From assembly GCF_900059565.1 (NCBI RefSeq), contig NZ_FIZW01000002.1, forward strand, positions 434,001 to 498,000: a stretch of 64,000 nucleotides of DNA, in the 5' to 3' direction. Every line of letters starts with the position of its first letter. Position 1 is the stretch's first letter. The translations under genes and the position numbers were made by a program. The notes under the pieces are model-generated. The model had not been told where the DNA came from and ran no database searches. It saw only the letters and a program-made list of their open reading frames with translations. Source of the DNA: Murdochiella massiliensis. GTDB taxonomy: Bacteria > Bacillota > Clostridia > Tissierellales > Peptoniphilaceae. This document shows, piece by piece, positions 2,825-43,459 of the stretch.

Positions 2825-4069
2825 CTCTTCTTCTATGCGCAATGTGCGCAGGGCATTCACCAACGCGCGCTTTTCCACATCCCAATTGAGCGTTTTTTTT
2901 GCCTCGACCAGACGCTTCGGGAACGGCTCCTTGGCATAGTCCTCCGCCAATTGTTTCCATTTTTGCTGAATATCTTCCGGATTCTTGATGTCGCACAGCA
3001 TGCCGATACCATAGGTGTTCACCACGCGGGAAATTTCCGGCAAATCGGAGGCCAACACGGGATTGCCCGCATGAATGGATTCAAAAAGTTTGTTCGGCTG
3101 CGCGTAATAATAACTTTTGGATATCGGATAGATGAGCACGATGCCGATATCGGCCGCTGCCAAATAGGTGCAAAGTTCCGCTCCGGGCACCGCTTCATGA
3201 AAAAGAATACGCTCCGGTTTCGGTATTTGCCGACGAAGATCTTCCAACGTCTTTTTGTACGAATCCATCCCGTAGCCCATGATCACCAACCCGCCACGAT
3301 TCGTAGCGGAAAGCGCCTGAACCGCTTCTTCAATGCCGCGGCCCGGTCCCACCAAGCCGTGATAGATGAATATCGGTTCCGATTCGTTCAGTCGCATCGT
3401 TTCTTTCCATTGCGCTCGAATTTGCAGACTCTTATCCGGATCCGGTTCACGAAGCACCGGAATATTGCCCGCTATAACCGCCGGAAAATCCAGTTGATAG
3501 TCGCGCTTCATCTGGTCATGAATCGACGGATTGACAAGAATAGTTAAGGTGCAACGCTTGAGAAATTTTTTTTCTAAGCGATAGATAATCGCCGAGGTCA
3601 GGCGACTTCTGCGCTTACCGGTAAAGCGGCCAAGTTCATACTCATGCGCATCATAAATGAGACGCGTCTTCTTTCTTCGACCGATGCTTGCCAAATGTGC
3701 AAGCCATACCCCCAACAGATCATGACCCGAGATCACGTCCGCTTTCTGTTTTCTTATGCGCACAACATAATGAAGGAAAGAAAATAAACGCCCCAACCTC
3801 CGGCGAATGCCGCGATCTCCGAAGGGATGCGGATCAATTTCCTCTACTGTCCAGGAATGGCCGTTGCGATGTCGCTCCTTTAGTCCCTTCGGGCCAATGA
3901 CATGCAGGTTCTCCCATCCGGCTTCTTCGGCGGCAGAAAGCTCACGCTCGTCACGGCTGTTTTCCCCGAAAGAGGAAACGGAAACTTTAAGATACAGCGG
4001 CTTACGTTTGGTTGTCATGTTCGCCGCCTCACTCTGTTCCGCCCAATTCCGTTCAGTTTTCCCTTGCAT
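2813..4069 (-). CDS. Glycosyltransferase family 4 protein
   Basis: Probable retaining GT-B glycosyltransferase of surface-polysaccharide synthesis. The N-terminal half has a Rossmann-like part with SGHDLLGVWLAHLAS and LIYDAHEYELGRF. The C-terminal half carries the nucleotide-sugar site: IYHGLVGPGRGIEEAVQAL, then PNKLFESIHAGNPVLASDLP with the usual glutamate. The sugar and acceptor cannot be read from sequence. The start is uncertain: the ATG at 4069 has AAGGA seven bases upstream, a GTG at 4084 is possible, and similarity begins only around YLKVSVSS, so an ATG at 4018 is also possible. With the chosen start it overlaps the upstream gene by 17 bp. It is the last gene of the operon. Confidence 0.85.
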   Translation of the reverse strand: MQGKTERNWAEQSEAANMTTKRKPLYLKVSVSSFGENSRDERELSAAEEAGWENLHVIGPKGLKERHRNGHSWTVEEIDPHPFGDRGIRRRLGRLFSFLHYVVRIRKQKADVISGHDLLGVWLAHLASIGRRKKTRLIYDAHEYELGRFTGKRRSRLTSAIIYRLEKKFLKRCTLTILVNPSIHDQMKRDYQLDFPAVIAGNIPVLREPDPDKSLQIRAQWKETMRLNESEPIFIYHGLVGPGRGIEEAVQALSATNRGGLVIMGYGMDSYKKTLEDLRRQIPKPERILFHEAVPGAELCTYLAAADIGIVLIYPISKSYYYAQPNKLFESIHAGNPVLASDLPEISRVVNTYGIGMLCDIKNPEDIQQKWKQLAEDYAKEPFPKRLVEAKKTLNWDVEKRALVNALRTLRIEEEKKF

Positions 4070-5192
4070 GACCAAGTCCTTCACTCAACGCGCAATACAA
4101 GCGGTACAGACGCTTTTCGTCCTGTTGCCAGCTAAAGCGTTCTTCTACCAGCTTCCTTCCGTTCTGTCCGAGACGCTCGCGAAATGATGCATCCCGCATT
4201 TTTTCCATCGCATCCTCTAACGCATGCGCATCCGCCGGATCAATCAAAAGTGCAAATTCCGCCTCGCGGTTAATGCGTTCCGGATAGGCAAAGCGTGACA
4301 TAATCACCGGAAGGCCAACCGCCATGGCTTCATACACTTTCGTGGGAAAGTTTTCCAATTTCGCGTACTGTCCCTTGTCTTGAATGCCGGAAAAGCAGTA
4401 CTTGCTCCGCCGGACGATGTCACGAATCTGCGTCGGCGGACAAACACCGAAGTAGTTGACGCCTTCCAAAAGTCCCTGTTCCTTCAACGCATCGGCATAG
4501 TTGGCCGGAGAAAATGCCCCTGCAAGCGCTACGCACAATCCTTTCTTCTTCGCTGCGGTCAGAAGCGCCGTAATGCCGCGTTCAGCCGTCAGGGATCCCG
4601 TGCAGCACACGTCATATTCCTTTTGTACGCCTTCTTCCGGCTTCCAAAAAGTCAAATCCGGGAAATTGCCGATGATTTCGGTTCGCTTCGCCTCTTCGGC
4701 AAAGGGATGCTTCCCCTCAATCGTACAGGGGAAAATCACCGCATCCAGTTTTCGGCAGTTCTTCTTTTCCCGCCAACGATAGAAGCGGGCTACTCCCTTA
4801 CGCAGAAAACGGGGAATGTAATTTTTCAGCAGAATTTGACTGGCCGTGAATTCATGACTGTCAAAAATGACAATTTTTCCATGACGCTTCAGCTTTATCG
4901 CTTTGCCCATCAGTTCCGGATCATGAAAGTGATAGATGTCGGCGTCTACGCGAAGCGCCTCCTTGTACACCCGCTTCGTAAATAATAAGAAGCGTTGTAT
5001 ACGGTTTATCGGTCGCGGTCCAACGCCTAAAACCTGTACACCCTTTTCTTCCCGACTTTCGCCCGGAGCAACCAAGGTCACTGCGAACTCGGGATGAGCA
5101 GCCAACGAAACGCATTCCTTCTGGAAAACGCGCACATCCCGGCTATCGTGAACGCTGGTCATGTGACAAATTTTAATTTTTTGCTCTCCCAT
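4053..5192 (-). CDS. Glycosyltransferase family 4 protein
   Basis: GT-B fold glycosyltransferase of 379 residues. The start MGEQKIKICHMTSVHDSRDV is typical of the GT4 N-terminal domain, with ADIYHFHDPELM (a donor/acceptor-cleft motif) and VIFDSHEF. The C-terminal domain carries CCTGSLTAERGI and the conserved FPTKVYEAMAVGLPVIMSRF. A closing helix ends FSWQQDEKRLYRLY, usual for the family. It lies 53 bp after the amidotransferase gene and overlaps the next glycosyltransferase. It probably adds one sugar of the repeat unit; which one is unknown. Confidence 0.87.
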   Translation of the reverse strand: MGEQKIKICHMTSVHDSRDVRVFQKECVSLAAHPEFAVTLVAPGESREEKGVQVLGVGPRPINRIQRFLLFTKRVYKEALRVDADIYHFHDPELMGKAIKLKRHGKIVIFDSHEFTASQILLKNYIPRFLRKGVARFYRWREKKNCRKLDAVIFPCTIEGKHPFAEEAKRTEIIGNFPDLTFWKPEEGVQKEYDVCCTGSLTAERGITALLTAAKKKGLCVALAGAFSPANYADALKEQGLLEGVNYFGVCPPTQIRDIVRRSKYCFSGIQDKGQYAKLENFPTKVYEAMAVGLPVIMSRFAYPERINREAEFALLIDPADAHALEDAMEKMRDASFRERLGQNGRKLVEERFSWQQDEKRLYRLYCALSEGLGHAREN

Positions 5193-5245
5193 CCCGTCCC
5201 CGACTTCCTTTCGTCCTCGAAACCCTTATCCATATCCACAGAATC

Positions 5246-6349
5246 TTAGCCGAAGAACCGATTGCGCAACTTACGAACAGCTGTTGCGAATTTTTCTGTC
5301 TTATAGTCCGTGTGCTGTTTTACCGGCGCCTGCATCAAGTGCACAAATTCTTCGTCACCGATACCCATACGCTCCTTAATGATCGCAATATAGGCGTCCA
5401 TTTGCTGCGGATCATACATCGGTTCTTCGAGTGCCTGCAATGCCTCTTCTCGCGTCATCTGTCCTGACACAATCAGACTCGAATAATGCGATTTCCGTTT
5501 GTCAACATGAAATTTTTTCGGCAACCAGTATAGTTGCAAAAACGTCGTGAAGAGGTTCTCCTGATGTTTCCCACCATAGTACTCAAAATCGCAAAATGCT
5601 TTCAGTTCCTGAAATGCGCGTTTGCGATTATAGTCCAAATAATTTAATGGACGATATTCCACCAAGTTTCCCGTTTTGTCCGATAGCCATTTTTGGATGG
5701 AGGTGATAAAACGCAGCTTATCGATCCCCTCCGTTCCAAAACGGTGGTGAATGTCTTTAATGTTCACGACATCCATCGAATTGTATGTGTTGCCCTGCTG
5801 CAAAATGTACTCCAAGGCATAGTTTCCACCGGAAAGAAAATAGTGGACATCGTGTTTTTTTGCCTCAGCATGCAAAAATGCCAGCAGGATATTGTCTTGA
5901 GGAATAGCGAGATTCGGCACACCGGCTTTCATATACGCATGAATGAGCGCATCATATTGAGCGCGATCCGGTCGAACCGTCTCCATCACCAAATGTGCCG
6001 CTTTCGTCAGATTTTCAATATTGCGAATGGAAATCGCCGTATCATAGCCATCATCGATATGAACCGCTAAAATCCGCAGTCCCCATTGGCAACCGAGATA
6101 CGCCAAATAGGACGAATCCAAGCCGCCGGATATGCCCATGATACAATCAAATTTTTTGCCTTTCCCCGCTTGTTTCAGTTTGCGGATCATGGCTTGCAAT
6201 TTTTCTTTGCCTTCCGCATTGGGAAAGTACACTTGATCCTTTTTTGCCAGCGCATCCGTACAATAATTGCACTGTCCCAGTTCGTCAAAGCGAATGGTGG
6301 GATCGGATGTATTATCCATTACGCAACGCGTACAGCGTCTAACGTCCAT
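5246..6349 (-). CDS. N-acetyl sugar amidotransferase (PP-loop type)
   Basis: ATP-dependent amidotransferase of the WbpG/PseA-like family, which converts an N-acetyl group of a UDP- or CMP-linked sugar to an acetamidino group. The N-terminus has four cysteines in two pairs (CTRCVMDNTSDP and CNYCTDALAKK), a probable zinc-binding unit. The PP-loop GISGGLDSSYLAYLG sits near residue 70. A GGAGG site precedes the ATG. In characterised systems ammonia comes from HisH/HisF-like partners; neither is in this window. The gene predicts an amidinated amino sugar in the polymer made by this operon. The exact substrate is not readable. Confidence 0.85.
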   Translation of the reverse strand: MDVRRCTRCVMDNTSDPTIRFDELGQCNYCTDALAKKDQVYFPNAEGKEKLQAMIRKLKQAGKGKKFDCIMGISGGLDSSYLAYLGCQWGLRILAVHIDDGYDTAISIRNIENLTKAAHLVMETVRPDRAQYDALIHAYMKAGVPNLAIPQDNILLAFLHAEAKKHDVHYFLSGGNYALEYILQQGNTYNSMDVVNIKDIHHRFGTEGIDKLRFITSIQKWLSDKTGNLVEYRPLNYLDYNRKRAFQELKAFCDFEYYGGKHQENLFTTFLQLYWLPKKFHVDKRKSHYSSLIVSGQMTREEALQALEEPMYDPQQMDAYIAIIKERMGIGDEEFVHLMQAPVKQHTDYKTEKFATAVRKLRNRFFG

Positions 6350-10348: not shown

Positions 10349-11911
10349 CTATGCCTCCGTTGCACTCTTAATCGTAAACGGCACATCCGGACTGATCTTC
10401 CGGCTCAGCGCTCGAATCACAAAGTTGGCTAAACGTGTCAGAACAAAGTAGATGAGGGCCACAATGAAGTACGCCTGGAAAATCTGGAATGTCGATCCCG
10501 CAACGCTTTTTGTCACAAAGAACAGCTCTGTTACGGAAATTACATTTAAAACCGACGTGTCTTTAATGTTTACAACCAGCTCATTGCCGATGGACGGCAG
10601 AATTGCTCGCATCGCCTGGGGCAAAATAATATGCGTCATCATCTGTCCGTGGCGAAGACCGATAGCCTGCGCCGCTTCAAATTGACCGCTATCCACGGCA
10701 TCAATACCGCCACGAATCGTCTCAGCAAGATAGGCCCCGGTGTTGATCGAAACAATGATACATGCCGCAAAGAGCGGATCCATATCGAGGTGGAAAAACT
10801 GCTTGCTGCCGTAGAAAATCAGCATGGCCTGGACAATCATCGGCGTGGAGCGAAAAACCTCAACATAGGCCGTCCCCAAAAGTTGAAACAAGCGAATCAG
10901 CACTTTTTTCATGCCCGTTTTCTTTTTCGTCGGAATGGTACGAATCACTTGAACGATAAAGCCGATGCCGAGGCCAAATGCCGTGCCCAAGAAGGAGATC
11001 AGAAGCGTCACGCCCGTACCGCGCAGAAAAAGGGAAGAATAGGTATCCCAAATGGCACGCACCTCATCAAGAAAAGAGGTACTGTCGTTTTCACCGCGAT
11101 TCTGTAGGGTGACCATCGCATCCATGGCCTGTTGGCGTTCTTCTTCCGGTATTTCCGCAAGAATATGGTTGATTTGCTCTTTTAAGGGATCTCCCTTGCG
11201 CACGCCCACCGCAATGGTGGTGTTTTCGGGATCCGCAACAAAGCCCTTCTCCGGAGCAAAAACAACCGTGGCTAAGCCCGGGTTCGCCATAACCGCCGCT
11301 AATGCGCCCGGCCGTTCGGAGACGTACCCGTCAATAGATCCAGCATTCAGTGCCGTAATCATCGTGGAAAACGTATCAAGCGGTGCCTGTTTGGCCACGC
11401 CTTCGATCTGATCGATCACCTCGTAGTGAAAGGTGTTAAGCTGTCCGGTAATCTTTGCGCCGGCAAAATCACTCAAGCTCTCAGCATGCGCAAACTTGCC
11501 ATCTTTCTGCACTACCATCACCAAATCCGAAGCATAGTACTGTTCGGTAAAGTCCACTTCTTTCTTGCGTTCCGGCGTCGGGCTCATGCCGGCGATGATG
11601 GCGTCAATCTTTCCCGACGTTAGGGCCGGTGGCAGACCGTCCCATTCAATCTTGCGAATCACCAGCGTTTTTCCAAGTCCTTCCGCAAGACGTTTCGCCA
11701 TCCATACGTCATAGCCGTTGGCATACTCGCCCGGACTGTTTTCCACCGGAACCGCCCCATCGGCATCGGTCGTTTGCGACCAGTTAAACGGTGCATAATT
11801 GACTTCCATGCCCACGATGAGTGTTTCGGTTTCTCCGCTTGCCCTCACCGGAAGGGGCAGAAGCAAACAAAGCACCAATAACAACAAGCCCCATTTCTTT
11901 CTTACCTTCAT
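10349..11911 (-). CDS. Fused substrate-binding/permease protein of an amino acid ABC transporter (probably lysine)
   Basis: A 520-residue two-domain protein. Residues 1-25 form a signal peptide (KKWGLLLLVLCLLLPLPVRA). Residues about 30-265 are a family 3 solute-binding domain (VGMEVNYAPFNW, GYDVWMAKRLAE, IIAGMSPTPERKKEVDFT). Residues about 285-510 are a BPD permease with several membrane segments and the EAA-like loop EAAQAIGLRHGQMMTHIILP that contacts the ATPase. Such fusions are known in Gram-positive bacteria; the binding domain is tethered to its own channel. A lysine riboswitch and terminator lie in the leader, so import is probably shut off when lysine is plentiful. Confidence 0.92.
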   Translation of the reverse strand: MKVRKKWGLLLLVLCLLLPLPVRASGETETLIVGMEVNYAPFNWSQTTDADGAVPVENSPGEYANGYDVWMAKRLAEGLGKTLVIRKIEWDGLPPALTSGKIDAIIAGMSPTPERKKEVDFTEQYYASDLVMVVQKDGKFAHAESLSDFAGAKITGQLNTFHYEVIDQIEGVAKQAPLDTFSTMITALNAGSIDGYVSERPGALAAVMANPGLATVVFAPEKGFVADPENTTIAVGVRKGDPLKEQINHILAEIPEEERQQAMDAMVTLQNRGENDSTSFLDEVRAIWDTYSSLFLRGTGVTLLISFLGTAFGLGIGFIVQVIRTIPTKKKTGMKKVLIRLFQLLGTAYVEVFRSTPMIVQAMLIFYGSKQFFHLDMDPLFAACIIVSINTGAYLAETIRGGIDAVDSGQFEAAQAIGLRHGQMMTHIILPQAMRAILPSIGNELVVNIKDTSVLNVISVTELFFVTKSVAGSTFQIFQAYFIVALIYFVLTRLANFVIRALSRKISPDVPFTIKSATEA

Positions 11912-11962
11912 GATCTCCTCCTTCTGTCGTTTTCTGCTCTCCCTCGACAGCCATTAGGATCC

Positions 11963-11994
11963 GAAAAGAAAAAAGAGAAGGCTGCGCCTTCTCT
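11963..11994 (-). terminator. Riboswitch-controlled terminator
   Basis: Minus strand: stem GAGAAGGC, loop GCA, GCCTTCTC, then a run of U with one C. It sits between the lysine riboswitch and the transporter start codon, as expected for the expression platform. Confidence 0.85.
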
Positions 11995-12004
11995 CCACAT
12001 CTCG

Positions 12005-12172
12005 AATCCGATAGCGCACCACCGTTTCTTCGGTGACAGTGCGACACCTGTTTGGTGCCACCCCAACGACGTCACGTGTCCGTTTCGTCATTTCGGCGAG
12101 ATTGCCTTTCTCTTCCTTCCCCGGCTACCGCCTCCGGAAAATACTCATCGCTCCCGCGCCTCTACCTCCTTG
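12005..12172 (-). promoter_or_regulatory. Lysine riboswitch (L box)
   Basis: On the minus strand the 5' part reads AGGTAGAGGCGCGGGAGC then GATGAGTA, the conserved L-box core. Further on are CTCGCCGAAATGACGAAAC and a GGTGGCACC / GGTGTC segment. The 3' end GTGCGCTATC closes the basal stem with GGTAG at the 5' end. It is followed by an intrinsic terminator and the amino acid transporter genes. No T-box motif (AGGGTGGNACCGCG) is present in the right place. Confidence 0.88.
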
Positions 12173-12199
12173 TTTTGTTAAGGAGTTCAATTTCGTACC

Positions 12200-12228
12200 A
12201 GTATAGCGGTCCATTTATCGTTTGTCAA
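12200..12228 (-). promoter_or_regulatory. Predicted promoter of the lysine transporter operon
   Basis: Minus strand: -35 TTGACA (consensus), 17-bp spacer, -10 TATACT. About 25 bp upstream of the riboswitch. Confidence 0.85.
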
Positions 12229-12368
12229 ATACTTGCTTTTTTGTTGCATAATCCGATGATTCACCGTTGACATTCCTCTCTTCATCGTTCCTGCGTATTC
12301 GTCTTTTTGTTTCCTTCTCGTATAACAAAAGTTACGATAGGCATTTTCTGTGCGGACGTTATGGCTTT

Positions 12369-12377
12369 TGCTATACT
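12369..12377 (+). promoter_or_regulatory. Predicted extended -10 promoter of fbp
   Basis: TGC followed directly by TATACT, an extended -10 element, about 90 bp before the fbp start. No good -35 hexamer is seen at 17 bp. Confidence 0.5.
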
Positions 12378-12466
12378 TTGAATAGAAGAAATCGTTCCTG
12401 TTATTTCCTTTCCGGTTTTGTTCGGAATGCGAGCACGGAAAGAGATCATCATGAGAAAGGAGCCTT

Positions 12467-14443
12467 GTGTTGAAGCAGGATATGCTTATGCGCATACTGG
12501 CCAAGCAGTTTCCGAACCGTCGAGCGGCGATGGGCGAAATTATTCGGTTAAAGACGGAAATGCTGTTGCCGAAAGGAACGGAATACTTTTTCAGTGACGT
12601 ACACGGCGAAGATCGCGCATTTATTCATCTATTGCGTTCCGCATCGGGCAATATTCGCCGAAAGGTACGAGATGTCTACCGCACACGCCTTTCGGAAGAC
12701 GACCAGAATGAAATTGCGGAAATGATTTACTATCCCGAGCTGACCTTGCAAAAAAAGATTGATCGTCTGGATGATGAGCGTTGGGTGCGAAAAATTATTT
12801 TGGAGCTGATTGAAGTGGCGCGCTTTATCGCCTCCAAATATCCGCGTGAACAAATCCGGCGGAAACTGCCGGAGGAATATAAAACGCTTATCGGAGAACT
12901 TCTCGAAATTAACGACGGTGAAATTGACCGTCGCAACTATTACTATTCCCTCATTGATGCGATCATTGAGGAACAGGACGCTTACGATTTTCTTTGTGCC
13001 CTTTCCTATACCATTCAGCGCATCTGCGTCAATCACATCCACATCGTCGGCGATATTTTTGACCGCGGCCCCGGTCCGGATAAAATCATTGAGGAGCTCA
13101 TCGCTTTTCGAAACGTCGATATTCAGTGGGGCAACCATGATGTCGTCTGGATGGGCGCGCAATTGGGGAATGAAACCTGCATGATGGCTGTCCTGCGCAA
13201 CGCCATCAAATACAACACCTTTGATGTTTTGGAGGATGGCTATGGCATCCATCTGCGTGCGTTAAACGACTTTGCGATGAATGTGTACGGCGATGATCCC
13301 TGCACCTATTTTCAACCGAAGATTTTTGATGAAAACGTCTATAATATCTGGTCCATTGAACGTGCGGCGCAAATGCACAAGGCAGTGGCTATTTTAGAGA
13401 ACAAACTGGAAGGCCAACTCCTTGAACGCCATCCCGAGTATGGCATGAATGAGCGCATCGTTTTGAAAAAAGTAGACTGGAAGACGATGGAATACATCGA
13501 CACCGATGGCACACGCTATCCTCTTCGCGACACCAACTTCCCCACCGTAGATCCGGAAGATCCTCTCAAACTCACCAAAGAGGAAGAGGATCTGGTCTTT
13601 AATCTGCGCGCTTCCTTCGTGCACAGCGAGCGCTTGGCGCGTCATATCGGTTTTCTCTTTCAAAAAGGGTCCAGCTACCGATGCTACAACGGCAATTTGC
13701 TCTATCACGGCTGCCTTCCGTTAAAAGAAGATGCCACATTTGATTCGCTCGTCATTGACGAACATCCGTATGCAGGAAAAGAATTGATGGATTACGTCGA
13801 TTACATGATGACTACGGCCTATTATGGCGAAAAAGACGCAAAAAAAACAAAGAGCGCGATTGATTTCACCTGGTATCTCTGGTGCGGCCCGAAAAGCCCG
13901 ATGTTCGGTAAGAGTAAAATGGCAACTTTCGAAAATTACTTTGTCGGGGACAAGACACTGGGAAAAGAAAAGATGAATCCCTATTATTCCCTCTGTGATA
14001 ATGAAGCCGTTGCGGATTATCTGTTGGAAGCGTTCGATATGAAACAGCCGCATGCCCACATCATCAACGGCCATGTCCCGGTAAAAAGCAAAGAAGGACA
14101 AAGCCCGAAAAAAGCAAACAACAAACTCTTCGTCATCGACGGTGGCATTGCCAAATCCTATCATTCCAAAACCGGCATCGCCGGCTATACGTTGATCTTC
14201 AACTCGCACCATATTGCTCTGGCCGAGCATCAGGATTTCGATGGGCTGACCAACGGTCTTGAAACATACTCTCCCCATGTCGAAACGGTGGATCGCTATG
14301 AACGCCGTTTCCTCATCGGTGACACCGATAAAGGAAAAGCCGATCAAAAGATGATTGATCATTTGCATGAGCTCATTCGCGCATATAAACGCGGAGAAAT
14401 AAAAGAGAGTTTGCCATATGCAAGGGACATGCATCGCTATTGA
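12467..14443 (+). CDS. fbp: Fructose-1,6-bisphosphatase class III
   Basis: Converts fructose 1,6-bisphosphate to fructose 6-phosphate in gluconeogenesis. The 658-residue length and Firmicutes-type sequence match class III (FBPase_2, calcineurin-like fold). The metallophosphatase motifs are clear: FFSDVHGEDRAF (D-x-H), VGDIFDRGPGPDKI (GDxxDRG) and VDIQWGNHDVVWMG (GNHD), with HIINGHVPVKSKEGQSP near the C-terminus. The start is probably the GTG at 12467, behind AAAGGAG; a TTG one codon on is possible. It is monocistronic, with a promoter near 12370 and a terminator at 14468. Confidence 0.95.
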   Translation: MLKQDMLMRILAKQFPNRRAAMGEIIRLKTEMLLPKGTEYFFSDVHGEDRAFIHLLRSASGNIRRKVRDVYRTRLSEDDQNEIAEMIYYPELTLQKKIDRLDDERWVRKIILELIEVARFIASKYPREQIRRKLPEEYKTLIGELLEINDGEIDRRNYYYSLIDAIIEEQDAYDFLCALSYTIQRICVNHIHIVGDIFDRGPGPDKIIEELIAFRNVDIQWGNHDVVWMGAQLGNETCMMAVLRNAIKYNTFDVLEDGYGIHLRALNDFAMNVYGDDPCTYFQPKIFDENVYNIWSIERAAQMHKAVAILENKLEGQLLERHPEYGMNERIVLKKVDWKTMEYIDTDGTRYPLRDTNFPTVDPEDPLKLTKEEEDLVFNLRASFVHSERLARHIGFLFQKGSSYRCYNGNLLYHGCLPLKEDATFDSLVIDEHPYAGKELMDYVDYMMTTAYYGEKDAKKTKSAIDFTWYLWCGPKSPMFGKSKMATFENYFVGDKTLGKEKMNPYYSLCDNEAVADYLLEAFDMKQPHAHIINGHVPVKSKEGQSPKKANNKLFVIDGGIAKSYHSKTGIAGYTLIFNSHHIALAEHQDFDGLTNGLETYSPHVETVDRYERRFLIGDTDKGKADQKMIDHLHELIRAYKRGEIKESLPYARDMHRY

Positions 14444-31556: not shown

Positions 31557-34277
31557 CTACTTCACCGGGAAAATCGACTTTACCGCATTGCGTACACTCT
31601 CTCCCACCGAAGCGGGGCCGCCAACAATGAGAATCTGTTTCAGATCCTTATGCGTATTGAGATAGGCATCAATCGGCATCGGCAGATTCGCCTGTTGCGT
31701 TAAGAGTACCGGGGCATTGAGCTTCTGTGCCACCGGGCCGGCGACCAACGCATCCGACCACTTTTCACCGCTCGTAAGAATCGCCGTTGTCGGGTTCGCC
31801 ACCATCTCCGCCATCTTTGCCGAGACCACATAACGATTGGCACCGTCCACACGGGATACGGTTTTACCGATCATCGCTTCAATCGCCTGTTTCGTCTCGG
31901 GAGCGATCGTTCCTTCCCCACCGCTAATGACGGCATTTGTGATGCGTTCCTTTAATACATCCGCCACATAACCGGGGACGCGATCCTTACGCACCAGAAG
32001 AATCGGCGCCTTCCACTGATGGGCATACGGTACCGACGAAAGGGCATCCGTATAGATCATACCGCTTGCAATCACCGCATTCGTGCTCTCCGGCAGATAC
32101 GCCGCAGAGTTCTTGTTCACCTCAAAACGGTCAATGCCGCCCACGCGCGTGATCTTTGCATTCGTCATAGCCTTAAGCTCGTCAATTACCTTTTCGGAGA
32201 TGGTTCCCGGGCCGCCCATGACGATAATCTCTTCACGCGGTGTACGCAGGATTTCCTGTTTCGTCACGTTAAAGAGCGTATCCTTCTGCGTATACAGGAT
32301 CGGGATGTTTCCCTGGGAGACGTTCATGGCACTCATGGAATCCGCATAGGCCATGTTCTGCACAAGAATCACTTTCTTGGCATCGCCGAAGTAGGTCTTC
32401 GATAGCGAAGCGGCGATATCTTGACGCGTGGAGTCATCGATGGGTTTGATGACGTCCGGTGTTTCGGCCTTTTTGTCGTTCTTCACATAGATGGTACGAA
32501 CGATCTGATTCTCATAGTGGACACGGCCATCCTTAACGGAGAAGGAAAGCGGCTTATCCAGCGGGATATAGCCTTCCGGGGTCTTAATTTCCTGTAAGGA
32601 ATAGTCGCCCGTTGCCAGGAAGTCAACCTTGGCTTCTCCCGATTTGTCCGTCGTAACCACGCGATTGATGGAAGAGATCATCTTATCCGTAATTTTGAAC
32701 GTTACGGGCAGCGGAATCCGGTTGCCGTCACCATCGATCTTTACGATTCGAAGGAGCGGCGTAGAGGGCTTGGGATCCGGCTTGGGTGTCGGCGTGGTGG
32801 GTTTCTTCCACTGTGCATAGACCACTAAATCATCCGAAACCACCGTATTCTCATCAAAAGCGTCCCCGGTTCCATCTTGCTTGGTATTCCATCCTTGGAA
32901 AACGTAGGTCTGTCCATTGACCGTCACATCCGTGAGATCATCAATCATAGCATCACCTAATACCCCGATCGACGGTTTCTTGCCCTCATCGAAGCTGTCC
33001 CCGGCAAGCGTCCCGTTATAGGCGACAATGGAGGTGCCGAGAACCTGTTCTTCGCTCGGCTGAAAGTCGTCGCTATTTCTTGCAAACCTTACTGTTGCCG
33101 GCACAAACTTAATCGACAGAGGAAGGCTTCCTTCAATGGAAGAAATGGGTTTTGACAAATCAATCCCAACGCCAAGCACATACTTTTTTGGCATCTTGAC
33201 AAAGCCATCGACCATACCGCTAACCGTAATGGTTTTTGCCGTATCTAACACCGTCTTTTTCGCCTCGGCTTTCGGGATGGTAATTGAGGATTCTGCGGAA
33301 AGCAGCATTGCACTGTTTTCCACCGTTCTGGCATCGACATTTTTGATGCGCTTTCCACCAAACCAGCTATTCGTACGTACAATCGTGCGAATGGTAATCT
33401 TACGAGAATGATTCGGATTTTTTATGGTAAACGTCGTGACCGGATCGGTGTCGGAGACGAAGGATTCAATCTTCCACGGTTCCGTCGATGCTCCTTCAAT
33501 CTCAAATTTTTCTCTTGTATCGGTATCACAGGCCAAATACGGCTGAAAATAGTAACTGCTAAAAGATACGGTCAGCGTATCTTTCATCGCAATGGCATCA
33601 TCCAGCGTAACATTCAAGTCGACATGCGTGTATTGCGCTTTTTTTGCCGCACTTCCCTTGTCCCCTTGCGTGTTCGTCATGATGGTGAAGCCGTTTCCGG
33701 TATAAAGCCAATGAGCAGCTATTTTATCCATTCGAAAGCTGGCATTCAAACGCAACGGATATTCATTGATTGTCTCATCAAACTTTTCAAAGATATTATG
33801 ATCGGTAGAATCATCATCTTTTCTGTGTAAAGCACTATTCGGTAAGGTCTCTTCATCACCAATACCATCGTTGATGGTGCAGCTGTTATTCGACATTATT
33901 CCGGGAGCAGATAGACTACTTAGATGCACCGGATATACGTCCGTCACCCCGTCCGCTAACAGTGCCATGGGATCTTCTCCGGAATAATACAGCTTCGCAC
34001 CATCGGTGTTGGCGTAATCTTGCTGATCACTCCAGCCGAGGAAATACTTTTTACCGGCTCCTCCTCCCGTGTCCCATGCCTCACCACGGTTGTTCGTTCC
34101 CCCAATGGTCGATTCCACTGCATCCGAAAAATCAACGGTTACCTCACCATTGGTTGTATGGAAGACAACCTCCTTTCCTGCCGCCGAGGAGGAAAGGGAG
34201 CTTAGGGTAAAGACCGCAAAAAGAGCAATCACAAAGATTGCCAACTTCCCGCCCCATCGATTCACTCGATTTCTCAT
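31557..34277 (-). CDS. Secreted adhesin-like protein with InlB-type repeat, SpaA-like domain and three CWB2 repeats
   Basis: A 906-residue exported surface protein. Hydrophobic signal LAIFVIALFAVFTLSSLSSSAAG ends near residue 33. A long beta-rich N-terminal region (to about residue 460) is unrecognised. Then come one Listeria-Bacteroides/InlB B-type repeat (YVFQGWNTKQDGTGDAFDEN, ending VVYAQWKK), a proline-rich linker, a SpaA-like prealbumin fold (LLRIVKIDGDGNRIPLPVTF, ending in GDYSLQEIKTPEGYIPLD), and three CWB2 repeats from about residue 630 that bind wall polysaccharide. No LPXTG motif. The ATG at 34277 is preferred over one six bases upstream because AAAGGA sits too near the latter. An extended -10 promoter is at 34344. 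Confidence 0.88.
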   Translation of the reverse strand: MRNRVNRWGGKLAIFVIALFAVFTLSSLSSSAAGKEVVFHTTNGEVTVDFSDAVESTIGGTNNRGEAWDTGGGAGKKYFLGWSDQQDYANTDGAKLYYSGEDPMALLADGVTDVYPVHLSSLSAPGIMSNNSCTINDGIGDEETLPNSALHRKDDDSTDHNIFEKFDETINEYPLRLNASFRMDKIAAHWLYTGNGFTIMTNTQGDKGSAAKKAQYTHVDLNVTLDDAIAMKDTLTVSFSSYYFQPYLACDTDTREKFEIEGASTEPWKIESFVSDTDPVTTFTIKNPNHSRKITIRTIVRTNSWFGGKRIKNVDARTVENSAMLLSAESSITIPKAEAKKTVLDTAKTITVSGMVDGFVKMPKKYVLGVGIDLSKPISSIEGSLPLSIKFVPATVRFARNSDDFQPSEEQVLGTSIVAYNGTLAGDSFDEGKKPSIGVLGDAMIDDLTDVTVNGQTYVFQGWNTKQDGTGDAFDENTVVSDDLVVYAQWKKPTTPTPKPDPKPSTPLLRIVKIDGDGNRIPLPVTFKITDKMISSINRVVTTDKSGEAKVDFLATGDYSLQEIKTPEGYIPLDKPLSFSVKDGRVHYENQIVRTIYVKNDKKAETPDVIKPIDDSTRQDIAASLSKTYFGDAKKVILVQNMAYADSMSAMNVSQGNIPILYTQKDTLFNVTKQEILRTPREEIIVMGGPGTISEKVIDELKAMTNAKITRVGGIDRFEVNKNSAAYLPESTNAVIASGMIYTDALSSVPYAHQWKAPILLVRKDRVPGYVADVLKERITNAVISGGEGTIAPETKQAIEAMIGKTVSRVDGANRYVVSAKMAEMVANPTTAILTSGEKWSDALVAGPVAQKLNAPVLLTQQANLPMPIDAYLNTHKDLKQILIVGGPASVGESVRNAVKSIFPVK

Positions 34278-34343
34278 TATCATTTCCTTTCTTATAACAG
34301 TTTCTAGTCGCTGTTCATTCTATACCGCAAATTTATGCATGAA

Positions 34344-34504: not shown

Positions 34505-34576
34505 CAGCCGGGACATCGGCTGTCACGCATTAATTTCGCTTGTCGGAGATCGTTAGGGGTGGCTCGGTCCCGGCTG
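34505..34576. repeat. Inverted repeat preceding the palindrome array
   Basis: CAGCCGGGAC at 34505-34514 and its exact complement GTCCCGGCTG at 34567-34576, 52 bp apart. The arm resembles the CCCTGGCTGG arms of the array that follows, so it may be a diverged member. Nothing in between codes for a convincing protein. Confidence 0.55.
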
Positions 34577-34614
34577 AGGCATGTTTCATTCAATACTAAG
34601 AGGTATTCGTGCTT

Positions 34615-34924
34615 GTCTAACCCTGGCTGGTGCGTTTGAATTTCGCTAGCCAGGGTTAGACTGGAAAAATTTTCCCTGGCTGGTTTTCGTTTTTCTGCCC
34701 AGCCAGGGTTCGTAGAGAGGCGATCGACCCTGGCTGGTGCGTGTTCATTTCGTTAGCCAGGGCTCGGCTGGAAAAATTTTCCCTGGCTCGCATGAGTTTT
34801 TCCTCCCAGCCAGGGTTTTTCGAGCAAATTTAACCCTGGCTAGCAAAACTTGCTCTTTCCAGCCAGGGTTTCACGACAAAAATCGACCCTGGCTAGGGCG
34901 CTATCTTACGCACGGCCAGGGTCG
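34615..34924. repeat. Array of six evenly spaced palindromes (about 53-bp period)
   Basis: Six hairpins, each with arms CCCTGGCT / AGCCAGGG or close to it: 34615-34661 (perfect 14-bp arms), 34674-34708, 34728-34762, 34781-34815, 34832-34870 and 34884-34924. Starts are 51-59 bp apart. Units 1-2 and 3-4 are near-copies with a 107-bp offset and share the segment CTGGAAAAATTTTCCCTGGC, itself containing a palindrome GGAAAAATTTTCC. Loops differ in length and sequence while arms are conserved or co-vary (CGACCCTGGC with GCCAGGGTCG in unit 6). It is not CRISPR, because each unit is an inverted pair. No matching gene product is seen. Confidence 0.85.
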
Positions 34925-35145
34925 TACACATTTTTCGAGCCATAAATGAGAGATCAACAGCATTTCCAACGCCGCTACACGCACAACTGATCCATCAAAA
35001 GCATCTCCCGCAGCGCTCCACTCGCACCCGCGCTGCCAGTGATATTTTCAGCGGCCCTCAATGACATTTTCCACAACGTACCACCTGACTCCACCGCGCT
35101 AAGCACCACCTTATTCTCCATCGTTTTCTTCGCCTTTATTCTCCA

Positions 35146-35251
35146 CAAGCTCCCGGCCTTTCCCCGTCGCCTCTTCGACGAGTCCCGCCTGCTAAGAAGT
35201 TGGAAGCGAAGGGACGAGGAGAAGCGTGCGACGGGGAAGGCCGGGGGCTTG
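35146..35251. repeat. Long imperfect inverted repeat downstream of the zinc-ribbon gene
   Basis: About 24-25 bp arms: 35146-35170 (starts CAAGCTCCCGGCC) and 35228-35251 (ends GGCCGGGGGCTTG), with one mismatch and one bulge. The middle can pair further (GAGTCCC with GGGACGAG). It would form a strong stem on either strand, ending three bases before the stop codon of the zinc-ribbon gene. No U-run follows on the minus strand. A smaller hairpin (GCAGCGC / GCGCTGC) is at 35010-35036. The rest of 34925-35145 holds nothing I can name. Confidence 0.6.
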
Positions 35252-35253
35252 TC

Positions 35254-35670
35254 TTACATGCGCGCAATAAACGAATGACCACAACTTGGGCAGTGAATCT
35301 TTACCTTCCCCAAAGTTTTGGGAATGCGCACCGTTTGCCGACAGTTTGGGCAGGTAAAATAGCGATGGGTTTTGCGGTCACGCCATTTTCGCTGTATGAG
35401 GCGAATGCGGGAGCGAATCCCATCCGTCGCACGCAAAAAGGCAGCATTTTCGCGCTGTCTTGCGGCTATATTGCGTGAAAACACACGAAACAGACTGTAA
35501 GCGAGGAAGAGCAAGCCAAGATAATACAAGGCTCGATGAGGAATAAGCCATTGCACGATAAGCAGGCCAAGTCCAAGAAAATATATGGTGCGAGCCAAAG
35601 AATCAAGGCCGTTACGCCCGATCAAAGCACGCTGCAAACGGACACGAAGATGCCCAAAAAAGTCTTTCAA
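35254..35670 (-). CDS. Small membrane protein with C-terminal zinc ribbon
   Basis: A 138-residue protein. Residues about 25-65 hold two hydrophobic segments (TIYFLGLGLLIVQWLI and ALYYLGLLFLAYSLF). A basic helix follows (IRSRIRLIQRKWRDRK). The C-terminus is a zinc ribbon with two CxxC knuckles (CPNCRQTV ... CPSCGHSF). Such small proteins occur widely in Clostridia but have no known role; the ribbon faces the cytoplasm if the two segments form a hairpin. It seems to be transcribed alone. A long inverted repeat lies just after its stop. Confidence 0.78.
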   Translation of the reverse strand: MKDFFGHLRVRLQRALIGRNGLDSLARTIYFLGLGLLIVQWLIPHRALYYLGLLFLAYSLFRVFSRNIAARQRENAAFLRATDGIRSRIRLIQRKWRDRKTHRYFTCPNCRQTVRIPKTLGKVKIHCPSCGHSFIARM

Positions 35671-42477: not shown

Positions 42478-43459
42478 TGTCTCCCTCTTTTCCATAGTCC
42501 ACCAGTTGAACCGGGACAATTTTGCTTGTCCAATCGATACTTCTTTCTTCCATCATATTCAGAAGAGCTGAACAGGCATTGTTCACCAATTGTGTAGTAT
42601 CCTGACGAATCGTCAGCACAAACGGAAAGGCTTCACGAATAATGGCGTTGTCATCGAACCCGATGACAGTGACATCCTGTGGAATGCGTATTCCGGCGGA
42701 AAGTAAAGCCTGACTTACGCCCATGGCCAACGGATCATTGGTGCAAAATACGCTGTCAAAGTCTTCTTGCTTTCTTAACACCTCTTCCATGCATTGAAAC
42801 CCCGCTAGACTGATAGGAGAAACTACCGAATACACGGGGACGGCTATGTCATTCTTTCGCATCGTCTCCAAAAAGCCGGCACATCTGCCTTTCACCGCAC
42901 TTGTTTCACAAGCATCGCGAATGAGCAGCGGTCGATTTCGTCCCCTCTCCAACAGCGCTTCAGCGGCTATTTTTCCTCCTGCCGGGTTGTCGGAAACGAC
43001 ACAAGGTCCACTTTCATCGGAATAACGGTCAATGTAGACAATCGGCACATTCTGTTTCGCCGTGGTTTCGACCGCCCGCTTCCGCCCTTGAATATAGAGG
43101 AGGCCATCCACGCTTCGATTTTGCAGCTCGCGAAAATATTCCGCTTCGATCTTCTGGCTTTCATCCGATGCACAGATCAAGGTGACATAGTTTCGTTGCA
43201 AAAACCACAGACTAATTTGTCGTGCAATGCGAGCAAAAAACTCGTTACAAATGTCCGGAACCAACAAACCGACAGTTCGAGTTTGCCCGGTACGAAACGC
43301 CCTGGCTAATGAGTTAAGGGAAAAACCCGTTTCCTCAATGACGTGTTGGACGCGGCGGTACGTTTCCTGTGAATAGCCCCCTTTGTGATTAAGCACACGT
43401 GAAACGGTGGCGATCGAAACGTTTGCCTTGTCCGCAATATCCTTTATGGTTGGTTGCAC
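42455..43459 (-). CDS. LacI family transcriptional regulator of the allose-type operon
   Basis: A 334-residue LacI-type repressor. Residues 1-50 are the helix-turn-helix and hinge (TIKDIADKANVSIATVSRVLN). The rest is a family 1 binding domain (VGLLVPDICNEFFARIA; GVSQALLSAGIRIPQDVTVIGFDDNAIIREAF). It heads the operon it is likely to control, being the first gene after promoter 43592-43620 and a perfect operator. Escherichia coli AlsR is an RpiR-type regulator, so this operon uses a different family. The effector is probably the sugar or its phosphate. Confidence 0.9.
   Translation of the reverse strand: MQPTIKDIADKANVSIATVSRVLNHKGGYSQETYRRVQHVIEETGFSLNSLARAFRTGQTRTVGLLVPDICNEFFARIARQISLWFLQRNYVTLICASDESQKIEAEYFRELQNRSVDGLLYIQGRKRAVETTAKQNVPIVYIDRYSDESGPCVVSDNPAGGKIAAEALLERGRNRPLLIRDACETSAVKGRCAGFLETMRKNDIAVPVYSVVSPISLAGFQCMEEVLRKQEDFDSVFCTNDPLAMGVSQALLSAGIRIPQDVTVIGFDDNAIIREAFPFVLTIRQDTTQLVNNACSALLNMMEERSIDWTSKIVPVQLVDYGKEGDNERNYSN

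Follow-up and report, generated by a model that had tools for sequence, protein, structure and literature searches.

Dispersed bacterial palindromes served by an enzyme of their own have their textbook example in the REP/BIME system and its RAYT protein (TnpA-REP). According to two sources (PMC2817692, PMC1525189), REP elements are intergenic, high-copy palindromes that are regularly spaced and alternating in BIMEs, the gene of the cognate enzyme is flanked by its own repeats, and a genome can hold several enzyme-repeat pairs. Insertion sequences also target these elements, with IS1397 and ISKpn1 described there as inserting into REP (PMC1525189). We analysed a stretch of 64,000 nucleotides of Murdochiella massiliensis DNA, hereafter the window, which carries an array of palindromes that resembles this system in several respects. 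Such arrays are intergenic and high in copy number, have regular alternating spacing, lie alongside the gene of a cognate enzyme and are targets of an insertion sequence. In contrast to REP/RAYT, the enzyme is a putative PD-(D/E)XK-type nuclease rather than a Y1 transposase, the GTAG/CGTC tag is missing from the A-type units of the genome of the window (G000), of its congener Murdochiella sp. Marseille-P8839 (G004) and of a genome of another genus (G010), two largely independent half-sites of 5-8 bp are conserved rather than a paired stem, and the period is quantised by helical turns. We consider the two systems analogous in their mode of working, with enzyme, tag and paired stem speaking against common membership.

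The arrays share with CRISPR loci a regular period with variable segments. However, CRISPR repeats are near-identical over 24-48 bp and separated by unique spacers, whereas here strong conservation is limited to 5-8 bp per half-site, the half-sites alternate in orientation, and the loops, which are repeated through duplications inside arrays, retain a weak consensus; no Cas protein was reported among 30 array-neighbouring proteins checked with Pfam. A replication or segregation site, one of the possibilities raised in the preliminary description of this DNA, is not supported either. The arms differ from the TGTTTCACGTGAAACA-like sites of the parS/ParB centromere, and three parS-like palindromes (GTTTCA-N2-TGAAAC; L217 19159, G000 C2:~979 kb) lie about 9 kb from dnaA and apart from the arrays, which occur at dozens of loci. 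We found no description of a pairing between nuclease and palindrome arrays in the open-licence literature, which leaves most subscription journals outside, so that absence is not proven.

The array of the window consists of six 35-bp palindromes, CCCTGGCT-19 nt-AGCCAGGG, at 34621-34921 on the plus strand. Unit 1 (34621..34655) has A-type arms, which recur exactly in unit 2 (34674..34708), unit 3 (34728..34762), unit 4 (34781..34815) and unit 5 (34834..34868); unit 6 (34887..34921) carries GGCCAGGG as its right arm. The unit starts are separated by steps of 53, 54, 53, 53 and 53, and the loop measures 19 nt throughout. A detector that requires a 6-mer, whichever it is, to pair at least twice with its reverse complement at a single offset between 8 and 47 found six pairings in the real sequence and none in 200 local shuffles of 1500 bp, confirming the six palindromes described before. 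The regular period of about 53 bp also stands, while the range of 51-59 bp originally given for the spacing does not. Units 3 and 4 are copies of units 1 and 2 in the 107-bp duplication that had been noticed (34620-34717 versus 34727-34824, 83% identical). Upstream, a decayed unit in register lies at 34514..34548 (plus strand), 107 bp before unit 1 and also recognised as a direct repeat, and a half-decayed unit at 34568..34602 (plus strand), 53 bp before unit 1. Co-variation of the arms of unit 6 was not borne out, as only the right arm is altered.

The array is flanked by two genes on the minus strand. A surface-protein gene (31557..34283), labelled CWB2-like from a homologue in locus L020, starts about 340 bp from the array, and its orthologue adjoins the orthologous array in G004. 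On the other side, a gene that is zinc-ribbon-like by its CxxC pairs (35254..35670) points its 3' end towards the array; it also adjoins the array in G004 and the relic of this array in a third genome, G001. Directly after this gene lies an inverted repeat (35145-35252) with 20-nt arms that are 90% complementary, which is possibly a terminator between the gene and the array. Outside the array, the window contains one exact CCCTGGCT, at 43300-43307. A search of the window with Rfam at gathering thresholds returned only a lysine riboswitch (12004-12172, minus strand, 104.6 bits).

We then followed the palindromes through the genome and its relatives, a check proposed in the preliminary description. 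In the 1.64 Mb of G000, CCCTGGCT occurs 157 times per strand, as compared with 13 and 11 for the reversed control. The full A palindrome was found 98 times in G000, 77 times in G004 and 17 times in G010, and was absent from the other 38 genomes of the same search, G001 among them. With a relaxed core (CCCTGR-N23-YCAGGG), six of 130 family genomes stood out (units, with control counts in brackets): G000 with 266 (0), G004 with 205 (0), G001 with 101 (0), G105 with 98 (1), G010 with 52 (1) and G106 with 40 (2), the other 124 having 0-3 units. The G000 DNA that was examined holds 32 CCCTG clusters of types A and B. Among 77 clusters from five genomes, no overlap with a called gene exceeds 60 bp. 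For 74 of them, genes were called to the left and to the right, in tandem (44), convergent (22) or divergent (8) arrangement; these counts are approximate given our home-made hexamer gene caller. Among the flanking genes checked, most are housekeeping genes. In both genera g1 and g7, an array lies downstream of four gene families, encoding a phosphoribosyltransferase (L012/L158), a xanthine/uracil-type permease (L014/L160), an ODP-flavodoxin (L024/L157) and an NADH:flavin oxidoreductase (L024/L151).

Sites alternate between forward and reverse, and the exact 8-mer shows a forward-to-reverse offset of 27 in 89 of 92 closely spaced G000 pairs. Of the linkers between neighbouring 35-bp CCCTG palindromes, 139 fell within 6-10 nt and 156 within 16-20 nt, with single linkers of 28 and 38 nt and none of 11-15 or 21-27 nt; their best common period is 10.75, and distances of 48 or more cross units that fail the pattern. 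Two arm subtypes can be distinguished: A, with the sequence CCCTGGCT and a period of mostly 53.5 bp, and B, with CCCTGAYR and mostly 42.5 bp. The type of arm does not strictly dictate the period, as a 43-bp step is found with A-like arms at one G000 locus (C2:962 kb) and in G105. Beside the nuclease genes described below, an unconstrained detector returned 104 steps under 75 from 28 arrays, which fall at 42-45 (20), 53-54 (49) and 62-65 (35), with no other step from 25 to 75; self-complementary 6-mers were dropped from this set (elsewhere they gave a step of 30 for TCCGGA, 40 for TTGCAA and 42 for GATATC). Outside the nuclease-flank set, steps of 51-52 turned up rarely and a step of 71 once. 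Our 'chain' detector, which scored the nuclease gene places below, is limited to helical-multiple steps, and the quantisation rests on the unconstrained detector and the CCCTG linkers. Units are thus spaced near 4, 5 or 6 helical turns, which is well supported and extends to other families the earlier remark that about 53 bp corresponds to about five turns, which would place bound proteins on one face of the DNA. In locus L275 (G092), from 3626, steps of 52 and 61 bp alternate under the detector limited to helical multiples, as if five- and six-turn units took turns.

CCCTG is not the only arm sequence. A detector without an assumed period found arrays with the arms CCGTAA, GTAGAG and TGTGTC/GACACA in G000 and with ACTGTA, CCGTAA and CTAGGT in Levyella massiliensis (G003). 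It yielded no array in G006 or G008 (103 kb each), in 192 kb from other loci or in shuffled sequence, with one shuffle for every locus. Sampling 400 kb of G000 at even spacing revealed GGACAC arrays with a 63-bp period, as well as additional A and B arrays. The five arm families in G000 are a minimum, since further periodic segments with 61-62-bp steps next to a GGACAC array (L210 6323-7900, C2:~346-348 kb) stand outside them.

A gene family that recurs beside the arrays encodes a protein of about 270 aa with a variable N-terminal domain and a putative PD-(D/E)XK-type nuclease domain, marked by the signature R-S-K-x-E / Y-K-Y-E / P-D-F-T / Y-W-E-H. The residues E161, D192, E207 and H208 are invariant in 40 of 40 nucleases. 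The protein matches no Pfam family and has chance-level matches in NCBIfam; PHROGs gave weak matches to endonuclease and Holliday-junction resolvase families. In PADLOC, the nuclease domain matches the C-terminus of the PDC-S68 models of candidate defence proteins (best E per protein 5e-22 to 9e-25). This likeness is confined to the C-terminal nuclease domain: the PDC-S68 models span 1202-1273 positions and match only at that end, whereas the array-linked proteins have a different N-terminal part. An AlphaFold model (mean pLDDT 91.2, pTM 0.79) shows an N-terminal helix, a three-stranded sheet and a helix, followed by the nuclease core. The three-stranded sheet and helix of the N-terminal domain may resemble AP2/integrase-arm or dsRBD domains; a fold search with this domain was uninformative. 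Foldseek returned nothing at or below E 0.001. The best VIA-align rows for the nuclease domain were the catalytic domain of the EDxHD homing endonuclease I-Bth0305I (3r3p, Z 8.0, rmsd 3.2, 92 residues) and Bax1 (Z 7.9); further PD-(D/E)XK enzymes ranked below. The I-Bth0305I match is at noise level, with Toxoplasma gondii mitoribosomal proteins at Z 7.5. The fold call leans on motif, PADLOC match and predicted topology together. I-Bth0305I is described as dimerising on a target of nearly 60 bp (PMC3943268). Unlike genes of homing endonucleases, however, the genes described here, where an array was detected, adjoin it without interrupting their presumed site, and such sites are intact at many other loci. 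Eight plasmid records match in the C-terminal half only, six of them labelled 'AAA family ATPase'. Matches came as well from three faecal contigs labelled 'Bacteriophage sp.', two of which encode proteins of about 1200 aa. The human faecal contig MT839528.1 (L291) encodes at 3033-3833 a stand-alone relative of about 267 aa with about 30% identity, and no array was detectable in the 4.2 kb around it.

The nuclease and the arrays occur together. The first nine nuclease gene places all lay near an array; most of this DNA had been chosen for its arrays, two of the nine (L220, L221) coming from the evenly spaced sample. A profile search of 249 genomes of the order found the stand-alone nuclease in 14 (G000-G004, G010, G105, G106, G007, G092, G093, G016, G107 and G114) and none in 231, while four further weak matches lie within frames of 900-1250 aa. 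All six CCCTG-rich genomes are among the 14 carriers. The arrays of G003 were already known through the insertion sequence before this survey; of the seven carriers new to the array search, six (G002, G007, G016, G092, G093, G107) have at least one array, and in G114 none was found at its single gene place. Overall, at 42 of 58 nuclease gene places, a number that includes fragments and one relic, one or both flanks contain an array with a score of at least 7 no further than 1.5 kb away. Among shuffled single flanks, 3 of 348 reach score 7 and none reaches 8, as compared with 41 of the 42 real places that reach 8. The background was 0 of 130 segments in G006 and G008, which have no listed nuclease match, and 6 of 259 segments in the even G000 sample. 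The 16 places below threshold include 5 of 6 in G092, 3 of 4 in G002 and the one in G114; two of the sub-threshold places (L262, L265) show units by eye.

In G000, five nuclease paralogues face five resolved arm families, one family beside each gene. The A paralogue lies at C2:873.6 kb (873617-874360), outside the window and about 405 kb from its array. The others are the GTAGAG paralogue at C2:884.7 kb, the GGACAC paralogue at C2:1132.7 kb, the B paralogue at C2:1216.3 kb and the CCGTAA paralogue at C2:1250.2 kb. At 884.7 kb the GTAGAG units were seen by eye, and the array scored within 1.5 kb is an A array about 440 bp away. Orthologues in other species mostly have unchanged arms beside them: CCGTAA recurs in four species and GTAGAG in two, and G105 and G010 share AGGAGGC, TAGTG and, by eye, GGTAT. 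On a tree of 40 nucleases, calculated without G093:C9, 14 changes suffice for the 15 different arm labels, which is the lowest possible number and was reached by none of 200 shuffles; 12 of the 40 rows were unlabelled and left out of the test. Some labels, among them GGTAT and GTAGAG (G000), were assigned by eye, and near-copies by themselves make arm labels cluster. B-type arms appear in two separate nuclease clades. There is also an apparent arm switch: the G004 orthologue of the GGACAC nuclease adjoins GGCTCC arms at the same 63-bp period.

We asked whether the N-terminal domain follows the arms. The arm-switch pair G004/G000 is 66% identical in the N-terminal domain and 97% in the nuclease domain, as compared with 77% and 86% for the same-arm GGACAC-nuclease pair G000/G001 and 75% and 94% for the same-arm pair G105/G106, which is not far from the arm-switch pair. 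Between genera, N-domain similarity does not track the arms: same-arm B pairs of g1 and g7 have N-domain identities of 0.30-0.35, below those of A/B pairs (0.38-0.49). These comparisons make it plausible, though not established, that the N-terminal domain reads the arms.

Broken nucleases offer a further view of the pairing. G001 has 0 exact A palindromes (as compared with 98 and 77), and its A nuclease is a relic at the syntenic place. At this place (L144 3350-4353) the relic is accompanied by a B-type array, whereas G000 and G004 carry the A nuclease with an A array, as if the B family had replaced the A family there. At the window locus, part of the array is still recognisable in G001, where four arms align: 23 of 32 arm positions, 16 of 20 positions in the 5-bp cores and 88 of 128 of the rest agree with G000. 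In G004 the corresponding numbers are 93 of 104, 61 of 70 and 197 of 290, so that the arms are better kept than the rest in G004 and hardly so in G001. With four arms, the comparison for G001 is thin, and the case that arms may be lost after their nuclease has one lineage as its basis. Two broken nucleases that adjoin regular arrays speak against a simple rule: the A-type nuclease of G004 has one in-frame TAG, yet 77 exact A units remain, and in G001 a nuclease at 632.5 kb is broken although the GATGGTG array next to it is regular. A recent loss of the nucleases might account for these two cases.

Based on the co-occurrence and the pairing of paralogues with arm families, we propose, with a probability of roughly 0.7, that the window array is a dispersed member of a two-part system of phased intergenic arrays and trans-acting, arm-specific nuclease paralogues. 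Each arm family would be recognised by a nuclease paralogue of its own, whose variable N-terminal domain is the most likely reader of the arms. A dimer could sit on the two inverted half-sites of a palindrome of about 35-40 bp, its nuclease domains meeting over the loop, and the whole-turn spacing would let further dimers stack in phase along the array. We consider it likely that the enzyme cuts or nicks near the palindrome centre and that repair is copied from another unit or array, a conversion drive that would keep arms uniform while loops change faster. Units would multiply in blocks, as in the 107-bp duplication of the window, and new loci would be seeded. A more ambitious version, for which we would not quite offer even odds, is an undescribed class of two-component elements whose nucleases of about 270 aa, each with a rapidly evolving domain for DNA recognition, bind, cut, homogenise and disperse their own phased palindromic arrays in the intergenic DNA of bacteria, new arm specificities arising through divergence of the N-terminal domain.

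An insertion sequence bears on the palindrome centre. All three G000 copies of an IS3-like element (L021 ~4063-5385, L024 ~3293-4605 and L025 ~11887-13195), with an OrfB of 272 aa containing an rve domain and the ends TGAACTGTCCCCC/TGACATGTCCCCC, sit in mid-loop of an A-type palindrome. Relatives in G003 (L174, L179, L182) and G010 (L178) lie between inverted arms of other families; one G003 copy, with an OrfB that is 96% identical, lies midway between the different inverted arms CACTGTA/TACAGTG, and two partial copies adjoin CCCGTAA/TTACGGG arms. Insertion at the centre between differing arms fits a palindrome centre that is accessible or broken, and is reminiscent of IS1397 and ISKpn1 in REP elements.

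The position of the arrays could also be read in favour of a service to the host. On this reading, which we regard as unlikely but the most serious of the alternatives, the arrays would serve nucleoid organisation or gene insulation, and the nuclease family would have been recruited as a binding protein whose cutting is secondary. Helical phasing would suit a regular nucleoprotein filament, and many array positions are orthologous between G000 and G004, some also in G001. Among the matches listed, moreover, no exact A palindrome or CCCTGA-type unit lies in C2:0-468 kb or C1:240-347 kb of G000, stretches that flank the terminus inferred from skew between C2:126 and 180 kb. A confinement of arrays to the origin-proximal part is weakened, however, by the GGACAC array at C2:345 kb and by the scope of the B-type matches, which were listed as far as C2:758 kb. 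Invariance of the catalytic-like residues in all 40 nucleases would be needless for a purely structural role, and close relatives lack particular arm families. The bound arrays may have a function for the host.

The orientation of the arrays next to their nuclease genes speaks to a second alternative, in which arrays act as operators in the autoregulation of the nuclease genes, most of the remaining copies being by-products. In its favour, the best-scoring array lies 5' of the gene at 27 of the 42 places, but it lies 3' at the other 15. Moreover, the 32 CCCTG clusters in the examined G000 DNA, whose arms are kept, are set against five nuclease genes in the genome. We consider this explanation improbable.

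The palindromic form itself suggests hairpins of RNA or single-stranded DNA, conserved as a multi-hairpin transcript, a terminator or a protein-binding RNA, and the preliminary description had named a multi-hairpin RNA. The arms are inverted repeats, arrays are often near gene 3' ends, most clearly in G105, and position 6 pairs in most units, as in a stem: 205 of 247 distinct G000 units have G-C (150, A) or A-T (55, B). The remaining 42 are hybrids with a mismatched position 6, however, and at positions 7-14 pairing never exceeded that of within-class shuffled partners by more than about 1 SD in five genomes. At position 13 it was below the shuffled value in all five (0.17/0.24, 0.16/0.27, 0.19/0.29, 0.08/0.25 and 0.10/0.24). 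The arms are strongly conserved over 5-8 bp per half-site, and in A-type loops a weak consensus persists that is oriented and includes a T-tract (T in 92% at loop position 13 in G000). The pairing statistics argue for two separately read half-sites of two types, and largely independent half-sites with quantised spacing point to putative protein-binding sites rather than RNA hairpins. Furthermore, one-turn quantisation of the linkers has no obvious meaning for RNA, and no Rfam match covers the array. We regard conserved hairpins as very unlikely, and the proposed multi-hairpin RNA finds no support in these statistics.

Mobilisation of a REP/BIME-type system by a Y1 tyrosine transposase (RAYT) would account for palindromes that are intergenic, high in copy number and alternating in orientation, for the enzyme gene beside the repeats and for the insertion-sequence target, and the nuclease carriers G002, G092 and G093 do have a match to PF01797. 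This domain has no match in G000, G001, G003 or G004, however, and G010, G105 and G106 are outside the 74 of 130 family genomes that match; on this survey we rejected RAYT/REP membership for the CCCTG-array genomes. Loop and linker frequencies show no GTAG or CGTC tag, and positions 7-14 form no compensatory stems, which leaves the transposase a scarcely credible agent. Two other candidates were rejected as well. B-type arms presumably resemble a resolvase half-site, but a small serine resolvase as common binder fails: in a search of 23 genomes, the one serine resolvase of G000 proved to be large (571-aa open frame), and no such gene was found in G106. A viral origin fails on IMG/VR, where pattern matches hold at most one core unit each and the nuclease profile finds no relative.

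Simple tandem-repeat expansion without a trans-acting factor, the fallback of the preliminary description, can point to clear tandem duplications such as the 107 bp in the window, but we give it hardly any credence, as it fails to explain distant arrays with common arms at dozens of loci and loops that keep a weak consensus only, families tied to nuclease paralogues, or quantised periods.

If the proposed two-part system of arrays and nucleases is real, it would be a second, independent case of dispersed palindromes with a dedicated enzyme beside REP/RAYT, with an unrelated enzyme. Such a system would occur in a lineage where no RAYT was detectable in the CCCTG-array genomes, and it would follow an explicit geometric rule of whole helical turns. 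The many natural nuclease-arm pairs, including one apparent arm switch between orthologues, could make a protein-DNA recognition code testable. For these organisms, the system would explain long intergenic stretches and would give a candidate role to a nuclease family without a Pfam match.
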